From: Planctomycetota bacterium
Lineage (GTDB): Bacteria; Planctomycetota; MHYJ01; JACPRB01
Direction of reading: 5' to 3'
Length of the DNA: 49,172 bases
Assembly (NCBI GenBank): GCA_035574235.1
Contig: DATLZA010000019.1
Coordinates: 1 to 49,172, forward strand
Below are positions 11,472 through 34,353 of this stretch, in pieces (positions within the stretch are counted from its first letter, which is position 1; the number at the start of each line of letters is the position of its first letter). The notes beneath the pieces were generated by a model, which saw only the letters and a program-made list of their open reading frames with translations, was not told where the DNA came from and did not search any database. The position numbers and the translations under genes are program-made.

Positions 11472-11606
<135 letters not shown>

Positions 11607-24200: not shown

Positions 24201-24554
24201 TCAACGCTCCTTCCGGTACGCCTTGAGAATGGGGAGGACTTTCTCGGCGACGGCGGCCCAGCGGGAGGCATCTTCCTTGACGGCCTGGGGATCCTGGGGA
24301 GTGACGGAGCCCGTCCAGCGGACCAGAAGGGCGTCCGCCCGGGGAGCGATGTCGCCCGGGACGATGCTCTTGGCGGCGGCGTCCTTGAAGATCTGCCCGG
24401 GACGGATGGGCTCCCGCCGGTCCTTGAGGAAAGCGACCAGCACGTCGCGAAGCCCGAGGGCGAAACGCCGGAGCGCGGCGGGATCGGCCTGCGGGAGGCC
24501 GGCGGCGATTTTCTCGAGGTCGGCGACGCGTTCCTGGAGCTTGTCGAAGTCCAT
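24201..24554 (-). CDS. Small helical protein of unknown function
   Basis: 117 aa, predicted as several amphipathic helices (MDFDKLQERVADLEKIAAGL, AALRRFALGLRDVLVAFLKD, AAVAEKVLPILKAYRKER). No signal peptide, no known motif. ATG 24554 is chosen because a TATCAT -10 lies 10 nt upstream. It follows the thiolase after an inverted repeat and so is its own unit. Confidence 0.7.
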   Translation of the reverse strand: MDFDKLQERVADLEKIAAGLPQADPAALRRFALGLRDVLVAFLKDRREPIRPGQIFKDAAAKSIVPGDIAPRADALLVRWTGSVTPQDPQAVKEDASRWAAVAEKVLPILKAYRKER

Positions 24555-24564
24555 ACCGGCGGGG

Positions 24565-24592
24565 ATGATAGCGGAAATTCCGGGGAGTGCAA
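24565..24592 (-). promoter_or_regulatory. Promoter of the 117-aa gene (leaderless)
   Basis: TTGCAC (24587-24592), 16 nt, TATCAT (24565-24570), 10 nt to the ATG. It is embedded in the inverted repeat that ends the thiolase gene. Confidence 0.45.
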
Positions 24593-24612
24593 GAAGTTGT
24601 CCTCCCGGAATT
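24576..24612 (-). terminator. Inverted repeat after the thiolase gene
   Basis: The minus strand just after the thiolase stop carries AATTCCGGGAG and, after 13-14 nt, CTCCCCGGAATT. These pair over 11 positions with one bulged C. A short T-run (TTTCC) follows. Terminator-like, and also overlapping the next promoter. Confidence 0.5.
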
Positions 24613-25776
24613 CTAGCGTTCGAACGCGACCGCCACGCCCAGGCCTCCCGAGGCGCAGAGCGCGGCGAGTCCCCGGCGGGCGCCGCGGCGGCGCATCTCA
24701 TGGAGGAGCGTGGTCACCAGACGCGCCCCCGTGGCGCCGATCGGGTGCCCCAGCGCAATCGCGCCGCCGTTGACGTTGAGGCGCGCGCGGTCGAAGCGGA
24801 GTTCCCGGTCGCAGGCCAGGACCTGCGCGGCGAAGGCTTCGTTGAGCTCCACGAGGTCGAAGGCGCCGAGCGGAAGGCCGGTCGCGCGCTCGAGATTCCG
24901 GATCGCCGGCACGGGCCCCAGGCCCATGTCCGCGGGGGCGACGCCGGCGGACGCCCAGCCCGTGATGCGCGCCAGCACGGGCAGGCCGAGCGACCGGGCG
25001 CGTTCGTCCGAAGCCACGACCAGCGCCGCCGCGCCGTCGGCGATCCCGCAGGAGTTGCCGGCGTGGACGGTACCTCCGGGCTTGAAGACGGGCGGAAGCT
25101 TCGCCAGGGATTCGACGGTTACGCCGTCGCGGGGCGTTTCGTCGCGTCGGAGGGGTTCACCTTCCCCCGGCACGGGGACGATTTCGTCGTCGAAGCGTCC
25201 TTCGCGGCGGGCGGCTTCGCAGCGGCGCTGGCTTTCGGCGGCGTAGGCGTCCTGTTCGTCTCGGGAGATTCGGCAGCGCTCGGCCAGGCGTTCGGCGGTT
25301 TCGCCCATGAGAAGGCCCGAGAGGGGGCAGAGAAAGCCGTCCCGGTACATGGCGTCAATCAGCTCCGCATGGCCGAGGCGGTAGCCCGTGCGGGCGCGAT
25401 CCAGGAGAAAGGGGACGCGGGACATGGATTCCATGCCGCCGGCGAGGAGAAGGTCGGCTTCTCCCAGGGCGATGGAGCGGGCGGCGAGGATGAGAGCCTG
25501 AAGGCTGGAGGCGCAGGCCTGGTTGACGGTGAAGGCGGGGATGCTTTCGGGAAGTCCGGCGCGGAGGGCGGCCTGGCGGGCGATGTTGGGGCCCACTCCG
25601 GCTTGGCGGGCGCAGCCGAAGAGGGCTTCCTGAAGGTCGGACGGGTGGACTCCGGCGTCCTGAAGGGCGGCCCGGGCCGCAAGGGCGGCGAGCTCAGCGG
25701 GATGGAGGGGCGCAAGATGGCCGAGAAAGCGGCCGAGAGGGGTGCGTCGAGCGGCGACGATGACGGCGGAGCGCAT
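24613..25776 (-). CDS. Thiolase (acetyl-CoA acetyltransferase), second copy
   Basis: 387 aa. The nucleophile C88 lies in NQACASS, with [17 protein letters not shown] and CASGGLG. It is clearly diverged from the thiolase at 18470-19675 (NRLCGSG, CIGGGQG), so it is not a recent duplicate. ATG 25776 ([17 protein letters not shown], a canonical thiolase N-terminus) is preferred to a GTG at 25785, which would sit on the -10 box. The gene is separate from the dehydrogenase-hydratase unit. Confidence 0.94.
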
Positions 25777-31074: not shown

Positions 31075-31470
31075 TTATAGACCCGGAGCGTCGGGGGGCA
31101 AGCCCGAATCGCCCGGGGGGCGGATCTTCGGGACCCGGCGGGGATCCAAGGGGGGCGGAGACGCCTCGGTGAGAAGCCGATGCAGGGCCCCCCGCATGCG
31201 GCGTACGAAGTTGAGAAGATCGATCCCGCCGTACTCGGCCGGATACTTTTCCAGCTTCTCCAGGGCCAGGCGGAACCGCGACCGTGCCCCGTTCCAGTTC
31301 CCGCGTTCGTAATGGTGGAGGGCCACGGCGCACAGGATCAGTCCCTGGAGGAAGTCCTTTTCCTCCCCGAAGCGCTCCAGCCAGAGCGATTCCCACGCGT
31401 CGTGGGCGGCGTAGTAGTCGCCTTCGTTGAACGCGCGGATGCCCTCTCGATACCGGGGGTCGTCCTTCAC
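31075..31470 (-). CDS. DUF309-family protein
   Basis: 131 aa, with the DUF309 pattern YREGIRAFNEGDYYAAHDAWESLWL then FLQGLILCAVALHHYERGNWNGA, and LEKYP. The family has a helical fold with a conserved HxxWE motif and unknown function. The GTG start at 31470 overlaps the upstream stop by four bases (GTGA). A proline-rich 20-residue tail follows. Confidence 0.9.
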   Translation of the reverse strand: MKDDPRYREGIRAFNEGDYYAAHDAWESLWLERFGEEKDFLQGLILCAVALHHYERGNWNGARSRFRLALEKLEKYPAEYGGIDLLNFVRRMRGALHRLLTEASPPPLDPRRVPKIRPPGDSGLPPDAPGL

Positions 31471-31955
31471 CGCGCCGGTTTCAGCACCGCGGCCGAGAAA
31501 ACCAGAAGCGCCGCTCCGATCAGGAGATTGGCGCCCACGAGGCGGACGGACCAGCGGTGGAGGCGGTCGAAGCGCGCCCGGGCGGGATCCCCTTCGCCCA
31601 GGGCGGCGAAGTTGGGGATCCGGGCCCGTTCCTGGGCGATCGCGGGGTGGACCCCCAGCGCATAGGTCACCAGAAGCAGCAGCATGAGCCCCACCAGGGC
31701 CAGACGAACGCCCTTTACCCACCCTTCTTCCGGCGATCGGAGTCCCAGGACGACCGAGGAGACCGCCAGGACCGCCGCGCAGGCCATCTCCACGTAGCCG
31801 AACGCCCGAAGGACGGACCCGAAGATTTCGCCGGCGACGGGTCGAGAGGGGGCGGTCTTGAAGACGACCGGGGCGGCGACCAGGGAGAGGGCAGCCAGCC
31901 CTCCGACCCAGAGAGCCAGAGCCAGGAAGTAGACCGCGTACCCCGCCCGGATCAT
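31467..31955 (-). CDS. DUF4149-like integral membrane protein
   Basis: 162 aa with four predicted transmembrane helices (residues 5-30, 55-75, 82-105, 140-160). The starting ALWVGGLAALSLVAAPVVFK is characteristic of the DUF4149/TMEM205 family. Function unknown. It overlaps the iscU-like stop by four bases (ATGA) and the DUF309 start by four. Confidence 0.85.
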   Translation of the reverse strand: MIRAGYAVYFLALALWVGGLAALSLVAAPVVFKTAPSRPVAGEIFGSVLRAFGYVEMACAAVLAVSSVVLGLRSPEEGWVKGVRLALVGLMLLLLVTYALGVHPAIAQERARIPNFAALGEGDPARARFDRLHRWSVRLVGANLLIGAALLVFSAAVLKPAR

Positions 31956-32326
31956 GCCGCCGGCTCCCCCCGCAAGGCCTCCCGGACCGCCTCTTCGGCC
32001 ACCACCGAGCAGATCACCTTGTGTTCCGGCAGGCCCCCCAGAAACGCCACCACGTCCGCGTTGCGGATCCGCCGGGCGTCCGCCACCGTCCGGCCCTTCA
32101 GGAGCTCGGTCAAGGCGGAGCTTGAGGCGATGGCCGCGGCGCAGCCGAATGTCTTGGCCCGGGCGTCGAGGATAATCCCTCCTTCGACCCGCAACGTAAG
32201 CTTGACCATATCCCCGCAGGCGGGGTTACGCACGAGAGACTGGTGGGTAGCCCCCGGAAGCTCCCCCGTATTGCGGGGGTTGAGGAAGTGGTCCATGACC
32301 GTGGCGTTGTAGTCCTCGAACGGCAT
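31952..32326 (-). CDS. iscU: IscU/NifU-N-type Fe-S scaffold
   Basis: 124 aa. The three scaffold cysteines and acidic neighbour are in place: C37 in NPACGD (D39), C62 in FGCAAAIASSS and C106 in HKVICSVVAEEA with H102. It assembles Fe-S clusters before handing them on. The protein stands alone without iscS, iscA or hscBA nearby. ATG 32326 is 4 bp after the DUF2203 stop, so the two are coupled. An LPxMK-like HscA recognition motif is not evident (LPEHK), which fits a NifU- or SUF-type scaffold. Confidence 0.92.
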   Translation of the reverse strand: MPFEDYNATVMDHFLNPRNTGELPGATHQSLVRNPACGDMVKLTLRVEGGIILDARAKTFGCAAAIASSSALTELLKGRTVADARRIRNADVVAFLGGLPEHKVICSVVAEEAVREALRGEPAA

Positions 32327-32329
32327 GGT

Positions 32330-32758
32330 TCAGCGGGCCAGCTCTTCGGCGGGAATGGGGTGTCGGCCCTGGAAGCCGTCTTCCAGGTGGTGGTAGTACT
32401 CCACCGCCCGCTCTCCCCGCTTCCAGCAGAGGAACACCAGCCTTCCGTCGATGACTCCGTAGAAATCGATCAGCCCGTGCTCGACGCTCTTGAGGACCAC
32501 CTCGAGCTCCCCAAGCTTGCGGACGGTGGCGTCGAAGTCTTTCTTGGCCTGCTCCAGCTCGGCCAGGTAGTGGGTGTACTCCCGATGGTCCGGGTTGGTC
32601 TCCGACTGGACTTCCTCCCCCCAAATCATTTCGAGGACGTCCGACTTGGCCTTGATCTTGCGGAGACGGTCCCGGATCTGATCCAGTTCGCCCAGAATCC
32701 GCTCGATCTGGGGAATGAGCGCCGTGGCTTCCCGGGCGCTGAAGACTCGAGGTCCCAT
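32330..32758 (-). CDS. DUF2203-family protein
   Basis: 142 aa, helical N-terminal half (VFSAREATALIPQIERILGELDQIRDRL) and a beta-rich end GLIDFYGVIDGRLVFLCWKRGERAVEYYHHLEDGFQGRHPI. This last segment is the DUF2203 signature. Function unknown. It heads the operon with a promoter 22 nt upstream. Confidence 0.9.
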   Translation of the reverse strand: MGPRVFSAREATALIPQIERILGELDQIRDRLRKIKAKSDVLEMIWGEEVQSETNPDHREYTHYLAELEQAKKDFDATVRKLGELEVVLKSVEHGLIDFYGVIDGRLVFLCWKRGERAVEYYHHLEDGFQGRHPIPAEELAR

Positions 32759-32779: not shown

Positions 32780-32808
32780 AGTATAGCGGCCGGATGCTTG
32801 GATTTAAA
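32780..32808 (-). promoter_or_regulatory. Promoter of the DUF2203-iscU-tilS unit
   Basis: TTTAAA (32803-32808), 17 nt, TATACT (32780-32785). The predicted start is near 32773, leaving a 15-nt leader to ATG 32758. It directly follows the end of the structured RNA and overlaps its T-tail. Confidence 0.6.
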
Positions 32809-32860
32809 ATAAAAGGAGCCAGGCCACCGCTTCGAGGGGTAACCCTGTCAGGCGGCCTGG
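32804..32860 (-). terminator. Intrinsic terminator of the structured RNA
   Basis: Minus-strand stem CCAGGCCGCC (32851-32860) with GGTGGCCTGG (32819-32828), 10 bp with one G-U, an inner hairpin in the loop, then CTCC and TTTTATTTTAAAT. A good Rho-independent terminator. Confidence 0.8.
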
Positions 32861-33129
32861 CCCTGGAGAGAGGGGGAAACAGATTTTGGGCTTGAGAGGC
32901 CAAACATACGTGCTGAGCACTCAATCCTAGCTTGGCCTCGTCGTGCCCGAAGCTTTGGGTCCCCTGCCCACAGCCGGGCGAGCCCCATTTTCGGCGCCCC
33001 TAAGGGCACCTAAAGAGCATTCGACTTAAATCTGTCGGGGGAGGCGTTTTCCGCTTCCCCATGACTTCTCTTCCAAACTTTGCTTCCAGCTCCCTCTCCC
33101 CTTACACCCGCCTTTGGGGGTTCCTTCTA
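32809..33129 (-). ncRNA. Unassigned structured RNA, about 320 nt
   Basis: There is no protein gene here. The minus strand has a strong promoter (33136-33164), at least five long helices, and an intrinsic terminator. Pairings include an 8-bp helix joining 33028-33035 to 32879-32886, a 10-bp helix 32930-32939 with 32896-32905 capped by GTGC/GCAC (32910-32920), GGTGCCC-TTAG-GGGCGCC (32993-33010), and a GGGG..GCG/CGC..CCCC hairpin (33038-33060). I looked for and did not find RNase P (GAGGAAAGUCC), tmRNA (tRNA-like ends), SRP (GGAAGNAGCA) or 6S signatures. A 20-codon ORF (33000-33062) overlaps two hairpins. The pairing was worked by eye, without a folding program. Confidence 0.7.
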
Positions 33130-33135
33130 CCCCGA

Positions 33136-33164
33136 AGTATAGCCCCCTTCCAAAGAGCTGTCAA
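33136..33164 (-). promoter_or_regulatory. Promoter of the structured RNA
   Basis: TTGACA (33159-33164), 17 nt, TATACT (33136-33141); -35 fully consensus, -10 five of six. Start near 33129. A run of T just upstream of the -35 could be an UP element. Confidence 0.85.
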
Positions 33165-33315: not shown

Positions 33316-34353
33316 TCATGACCGAGAAGAGGCTCGAACGGGCTTTGTGCATTGAATCGTCGTCCCATGGATCTCGAAGAGTGGGCCCGTGAATTGCTCC
33401 GTCACCCATATATTGGTCCGCGTGTGCTCCGTCAGGCGGCTGGCGCGAAGCGATCCTCCGCAAAATGCAAGCCAAGGCACCAGCTGATCGGTCGCGTGTT
33501 CGTCCACCGCCGCTTCCGAGGCTATCTCTTGTGCCAAGGCCCGGGCCGCCTGGCGGCCGACCTCTTCCGCAGGCTTGCCCCGCTCCCCCAGCGCGCCGGC
33601 TCCAAGGCGCGCCTCTCCCTCAAAGCCCGCCACGGCCACGAGGACACTGCCGGAAGACCGTGTCGCCCCGTAAAGGACTTCGGTTTCCGTCCGCCCGCCC
33701 AGTCCGGCCAGCGCCTGCGCGGCCGCCTCCGCCTGCCGTTCCGACACCCTTCTTGAAGCCAACTCCTCCGAGGCGAAAGAGACGATCCGGATCTCGCGGA
33801 GCGCGCCCCGCTCGGTCAGGCTGAAGGGAAGCGGCGCAAGCGGTCCTTCCGCTTCGACCACGACTTCCCCCCCTCCCTTGGGGTAAAACCCGCGGCGGCG
33901 GATTTCGAAGCTCAGACGGCGGCTCCGTGCCGCCACGAGCTCCAACACCACCCGTTTCAGGAAGTCCGCGGGAGGACTCCAGGGGACGTCCGTGCCGCCG
34001 ATGATCTCGACGCGGCTCGGCCCCTCCGCCACCAGCAGGGCCGGAAGGAGCGTCTGAAGGAGCAGCGTAACCGATCCCGCAGTCCCGATATCCACCCGAA
34101 AGGAGCTTCCCCGGAGGGGCGCGGGGTGGAAGGTCACCGAGGGCGACCCCGGCACGGCCCCCTCGAACCGGACGGGGCCCAGGAAGCGAAGCGACTGGAG
34201 GACCTGGACGTGCTGAGGCTTGAGTCCCGGATTCGGCCGCCGGGCGCGGATGTTGTCCATGCGGAACGGCCGGCCCGTGACGAGGCTCCAGACGAGGGCC
34301 GTGCGCAGCATCTGGCCGCCCCCTTCGCCCCGGGACCCATCGAGGTTGACCAT
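33316..34353 (-). CDS. rtcA: RNA 3'-terminal phosphate cyclase
   Basis: 345 aa. It converts RNA 3'-phosphate to a 2',3'-cyclic end in an ATP-dependent reaction. Family motifs: DGSRGEGGGQMLRTAL at the N-terminus, RPNPGLKPQHVQVLQSL, the GTAGSVTLLLQTLLPAL segment, and the C-terminal LTEHTRTNIWVTEQF, where the histidine becomes AMP-linked. The protein sits alone without rtcB or an RtcR activator. ATG 34353 (MVNLDGSRGEGG) is the canonical N-terminus. It is divergent to mrp with only 30 bp between the two start codons. Confidence 0.93.
   Translation of the reverse strand: MVNLDGSRGEGGGQMLRTALVWSLVTGRPFRMDNIRARRPNPGLKPQHVQVLQSLRFLGPVRFEGAVPGSPSVTFHPAPLRGSSFRVDIGTAGSVTLLLQTLLPALLVAEGPSRVEIIGGTDVPWSPPADFLKRVVLELVAARSRRLSFEIRRRGFYPKGGGEVVVEAEGPLAPLPFSLTERGALREIRIVSFASEELASRRVSERQAEAAAQALAGLGGRTETEVLYGATRSSGSVLVAVAGFEGEARLGAGALGERGKPAEEVGRQAARALAQEIASEAAVDEHATDQLVPWLAFCGGSLRASRLTEHTRTNIWVTEQFTGPLFEIHGTTIQCTKPVRASSRS

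Follow-up and report, generated by a model that had tools for sequence, protein, structure and literature searches.

The 557-bp gap between a DUF2203 gene (start at 32758) and rtcA (stop at 33316) raises the question of whether it encodes a structured RNA and, if so, of what kind. The DNA analysed here, referred to as the window (49,172 nt), is contig C19 of the 4.06-Mb genome of a groundwater planctomycete (G000). In agreement with the preliminary description, which had reported a gap free of protein genes, no credible open reading frame was found. The sigma-70 promoter described on the minus strand was also recovered (Table 1), and shuffled versions of the gap region contained 0.2 promoter-like sites on average. 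We consider it quite probable that the locus is a real RNA gene.

Promoter, fold and terminator of the element

The predicted transcript runs from a +1 set by convention, 7 nt past the -10 hexamer, to a 3′ end most likely near 32806, which corrects the earlier boundary of 32809. A 39-nt block extending from upstream into the -35 region shows 92% conservation between G000 and its relative G001.

Table 1 Features of the element and its downstream genes, in window coordinates
Feature	Position	Strand	Basis or remark
Sigma-70 promoter TTGACA-17-TATACT	33136..33164	-	-35 at 33164-33159, 17-nt spacer, -10 at 33141-33136; 11/12 consensus matches; equivalents in G001, G002, G003
Predicted transcript, about 324 nt	32806..33129	-	Presumed +1 to U-run end
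GGGGAGAGGGA, 5′ strand of long-range pairing with CCCUCUCUCC	33091..33101	-	Minimum-energy fold
GGGGAAGCGGAA, candidate P1 5′ strand pairing with UUCUGUUUCCCC of the box	33049..33060	-	p 0.005 in G000
BoxA-like TGCTCTTTA	33011..33019	-	Also in G001 and G002, not G003; a lead only
Hairpin of variable stems around an asymmetric internal loop (GNAUNG side)	32896..32939	-	Just before the box
C-rich box UCUGUUUCCCCCUCUCUCC (19-mer)	32865..32883	-	Invariant in four genera
Terminator hairpin, arms GGGCCAGGCCGCC / GGUGGCCUGGCUCC, inner GGG/CCC tip	32815..32863	-	Arms conserved
U-run UUUUAUUUU	32806..32814	-	Sequence
Possible separate DUF2203 promoter TTTAAA-17-TATACT	32780..32808	-	Sequence scan
DUF2203 gene, conserved downstream neighbour	32330..32758	-	PF09969
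NifU/IscU-type scaffold gene	31952..32326	-	PF01592

The extensive pairing claimed for the segment was borne out by folding: the minus strand gave -157.6 kcal/mol (z -5.2), and none of 100 shuffles folded equally well. Without the terminator, the body still scored z -3.8, while only 1 of 100 window control segments of equal length reached z ≤ -2.9. In that sampling, the sole segment with z < -3 was 24551-24816 on the minus strand (z -3.83), the junction after a thiolase-like gene, which contains an inverted repeat around GAATTCCGGG.

Several individual helices were examined. The 10-bp stem capped by GUGC/GCAC is present in G000 as described. The long-range 8-bp pair, which passes through the C-rich tract, stood up in part, being significant in G000 (p 0.007) but not in the relatives G001, G002 and G003. 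A second candidate pairing, P1, would join GGGGAAGCGGAA to the box; in G000 it competes with a local hairpin of the minimum-energy fold, and it reached significance in none of G001, G002 and G003. Partners of the same kind occur on the phage contigs L141, L143 and L145. In G001, G002 and G003 the hairpin that immediately precedes the box has the same asymmetric-loop shape with other stems, and phage contig L142 has a related GGAUAG hairpin. The intrinsic terminator is real, with hairpin and U-run conserved in relatives. It was missed by a simple terminator scan, probably because the loop exceeds the size allowed there, and was confirmed by a further check.

Searches of the window and of the phage and G002 loci with Rfam 15, at gathering and permissive thresholds, returned only chance-level matches at the element, consistent with the earlier failure to match it to a known RNA. 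The best sub-threshold match, Scr3202 (RF02833), covers the box and terminator part and scored 18.0 bits in G000 and 16.9 bits in L141 against a cut-off of 52; with E-values of 5.2 and 3.8, respectively, it was dismissed as chance. A tRNA or tmRNA was rejected, given no tRNA-like fold or ARAGORN detection. Like 6S RNA, the element may be a structured RNA that stands on its own and is a few hundred nucleotides long; it differs in that none of the family's genomes has an RF00013 match here, while G002 has one elsewhere in its genome. The sole Rfam match in the window is a 5S rRNA gene at 11473-11592 (RF00001, 68.1 bits).

Chromosomal relatives and the conserved 3′ module

A DNA search revealed matching sequence in the four other genera of the family, and relatives sharing the same 20-mer are Planctomycetota metagenome-assembled genomes, mostly from groundwater. 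In G001, G002 and G003 the element lies upstream of DUF2203-nifU, as in G000, while the gene on its other side varies: rtcA in G000, a gene similar to the FHA-kinase gene of the window in G001, and, in both G002 and G003, a large gene in divergent orientation. All four loci carry TTGACA-(16-18)-TATAMT, with predicted transcripts of 324-441 nt, and the predicted fold of each body is unusually stable (z -2.9 to -3.8). A short open reading frame common to the four bodies was not found by eye, and attenuation by a leader peptide was rejected on this ground. The order DUF2203-nifU-DUF4149 (window 31075-32758, minus strand) is itself conserved in the family; in G000 it is followed by DUF309, tilS and pcm, of which tilS and pcm also occur in G002. 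A literature search on DUF2203 turned up almost nothing published and nothing informative.

Sequence conservation sits in the 3′ end and not in the body, which cannot be aligned between the pairs G000/G001 and G002/G003. The final 85 nt or so, comprising UCUGUUUCCCCCUCUCUCC, the hairpin with its fixed arms and the U-run, are nearly invariant across four genera, compared with 66-68% identity for DUF2203. Covariation among homologous gaps had been proposed as a check on the structure. Structure-preserving changes are present, namely in the stems of the hairpin before the box and as a compensatory replacement of G-C by A-U in the terminator stem of a second G000 copy, but their extent is modest; for the terminator the test is weak because the stem of the 3′ module barely varies.

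In all, 392 Planctomycetota genomes were searched with a covariance model built on the 3′ module; 11 candidates per genome were scored, so that weak copies may be missed. The search returned the same family, the second G000 copy, which sits just upstream of an MmgE/PrpD gene, a weak match in G005 (L010, G005:C427) and the G087 contig described below, with the remainder at chance level. In G005, an AT-rich genome of another family, the box and terminator directly precede a divergent nifU; its E-value of 4e-4 was computed for one genome, so with 392 genomes searched the copy is only suggestive. Apart from G005, the IscU genes inspected in other families of the class have no box upstream. The exact 19-mer was confined, among the 392 genomes, to this family and one G001-like contig (L093, G087:C126), appearing elsewhere only with two mismatches. 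That contig reads the same as the G001 DUF2203 locus, though its genome is placed in another family; it appears to be duplicate binning or contamination and was set aside. Some copies are degenerate and have no U-run; close to them is a serine recombinase gene (G003:C20, G004:C117) or an IS21 istB gene (G004:C184). Loci L184, L185 and L186 and most pattern matches with three mismatches were judged to be chance from their context.

Copies on phage contigs

The exact 19-mer was also detected on eight IMG/VR contigs (L141-L148), three of which carry the whole 3′ module. PHROG families confirm phage-type genes on five of them (L143-L147); the tested genes of L141 and L142 gave no PHROG match, and the viral nature of these two is thus taken from IMG/VR. 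Only L144 and L147 are clearly related, the similarity among the others being at most that of distant integrases. No convincing match was found in the named phages and plasmids searched, and 398 genomes of another phylum, sampled around the genome of L045, contained no box even when one mismatch was allowed. The preliminary proposal of a new or lineage-specific RNA is supported by the Rfam result and by homologous gaps that keep promoter, structure and terminator, although its presence on phage contigs means that the element is not confined to one lineage in the strict sense.

The eight copies appear to be of two kinds. On five contigs, an upstream GGGRRRCRGAA is able to pair with UUCUGUUUCCC, leaving CCUCUCUCC single-stranded before the terminator, and these copies look like complete short RNA genes. 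Tested against shuffles, this P1 pairing gave p ≤ 0.0025 in L141, L143 and L145, 0.05 in L148 and 0.14 in L142 (Fisher combined p ~1e-5 over the phage contigs). Promoters of their own are also present in L141 and L143. The L143 unit is complete at ~112 nt, and the gene that follows it is convergent, so that there the element would be free-standing and not a leader. CCUCUCUCC is mostly unpaired in the compact RNAs of L141 and L143, but the minimum-energy folds predicted for G000 and G001 show it as paired.

L144, L146 and L147, on which no significant P1 partner was found, are the three contigs that have a tyrosine integrase gene upstream of the box, with some 40 to 330 nt between the two; from this arrangement, we read these copies as 3′-end fragments at putative attachment sites. 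The sorting was made post hoc on eight contigs, and L142 and L144 are not clearly separated by p-value alone; a promoter-like site just upstream of the L144 box fits a fragment less well. At L147:13573-13964, near the end of the examined DNA, box and hairpin stand directly before an epimerase-like gene with a TTG start. The hairpin could hide the ribosome-binding site, and this segment may be host sequence bordering a prophage.

Candidate functions of the element

We consider the chances about even that the element represents a free-standing small RNA family, shared by a planctomycete family and unrelated phages, which acts in trans through its C-rich linker and whose 3′ end is also an integration target. 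In the proposed pathway, RNA polymerase would start at the consensus promoter and transcribe a structured body that differs in size between copies; in the compact forms, GGGRRRCRGAA would pair with UUCUGUUUCCC and so close this body. The invariant CCUCUCUCC would be left single-stranded, and transcription would stop at the conserved terminator hairpin. The exposed linker might then pair in trans with G-rich ribosome-binding sites resembling GGAGAGAGG, or bind a protein. Copies that look complete are present on phage contigs, and the 3′ end of the RNA seems to serve some integrases as an attachment site. Of this scheme, the promoter, the structure, the conserved 3′ module, the phage copies and the integrase neighbours are seen in the sequence, while transcription, action in trans, the kind of target and integration are inferred. 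Action in trans through CCUCUCUCC is favoured because the conserved part consists of box and terminator, because the compact phage forms leave CCUCUCUCC largely unpaired, and because C-rich stretches in single-stranded parts of RsaE-type RNAs can pair with Shine-Dalgarno sequences (PMC4409812).

The main rival of such a free-standing RNA is a 5′ leader of the DUF2203-nifU operon, in which the terminator would stop transcription unless a factor acting on the C-rich box or hairpin permits read-through. Like attenuators and riboswitch leaders, the element is a predicted structured RNA whose intrinsic terminator lies a short way ahead of a start codon, and DUF2203-nifU follows it, co-directionally, in four of four genera while the upstream genes change; this synteny within one family may however be plain inheritance. 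Proximity to start codons also speaks for a leader and counts against a free-standing RNA: only 7 nt separate the end of the U-run from the DUF2203 start codon in G002, and the second G000 copy, with its compensatory stem change, and the weak G005 copy also lie just before start codons. The lack of significant P1 pairing in G001-G003 and the slight covariation likewise count against a free-standing RNA. No separate DUF2203 promoter was seen in G002 or G003, and in G003 the operon would thus need read-through from upstream of the terminator. Against a leader, a possible separate promoter precedes DUF2203 in G000 and, by eye, in G001 (TTTAAA-17-TATATT); what is conserved is the terminator and box rather than an aptamer-like body, the opposite of most riboswitches; and the L143 unit is followed by a convergent gene, not a co-directional one. 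Taken together, we regard a leader as possible but unlikely.

Two further explanations are less probable. The 3′ module might be conserved chiefly as DNA, its box and hairpin being recognised for integration by integrases and other mobile elements, and its scattered copies would then be attachment-site remnants. The tyrosine integrases directly upstream of the L144, L146 and L147 boxes and the degenerate copies beside recombinase and istB genes, which lack a U-run, are as this would predict. It leaves the conserved promoters and structured bodies unexplained, however, and complete units occur on L141, L143 and L145 with no integrase in the DNA inspected; moreover, an attachment site in the 3′ end of a gene presupposes the gene. 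We think it quite unlikely as the main explanation. Least probable of all is an ordinary intergenic terminator together with a promoter of the next operon, with folding that reflects a GC-rich genome. Both parts are common between genes, and the body sequence is not conserved past close relatives, but such an arrangement would account poorly for the near-identity of ~85 nt across genera, for recurrence on unrelated phage contigs, and for four bodies whose z-scores are matched by 1% of window segments.

The free-standing RNA has partial counterparts among known systems. RsaE/RoxS and FsrA of Bacillota likewise have their own promoter, an intrinsic terminator and a C-rich stretch. They belong to other phyla; the element has no Rfam match, a single long conserved box adjoining a terminator that is itself conserved in sequence, a larger structured body in planctomycetes, and copies on phage contigs. 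In temperate phages, attP typically overlaps a tRNA gene at its 3′ end (PMC2884959), and the putative 3′-end fragments adjoining tyrosine integrase genes resemble this pattern. The element differs in being neither tRNA nor tmRNA, and its attachment use is putative, proposed from gene neighbourhood. If the free-standing reading is true, an RNA family absent from Rfam links a bacterial lineage and unrelated phages through a 19-nt box; box and terminator offer a simple handle for finding further members; and it becomes testable whether a single RNA combines regulation in trans with use as an integration gene.

A bolder version, which we think quite unlikely, is that the element belongs to a previously unrecognised housekeeping or regulatory RNA, highly expressed in several lineages of uncultivated bacteria. 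Phages would have copied it as a decoy or a substitute, and several integrases would use its gene for attachment, as is best known for the genes of tRNA and tmRNA.

The element promoter and the G000 16S promoter are alike in their consensus hexamers, which, with boxA-like sites in three bodies, hints at high expression but is no proof of it. The G000 16S gene (L188, G000:C143:35708-37230) has a long leader with a TTGACA-17-TATAAT promoter and a boxA-like GATCTTTGAAAAT; within about 250 nt after the gene lie CCTCTTGCCGTC and a T-run, which suggests that this 16S gene is not linked to a 23S gene.
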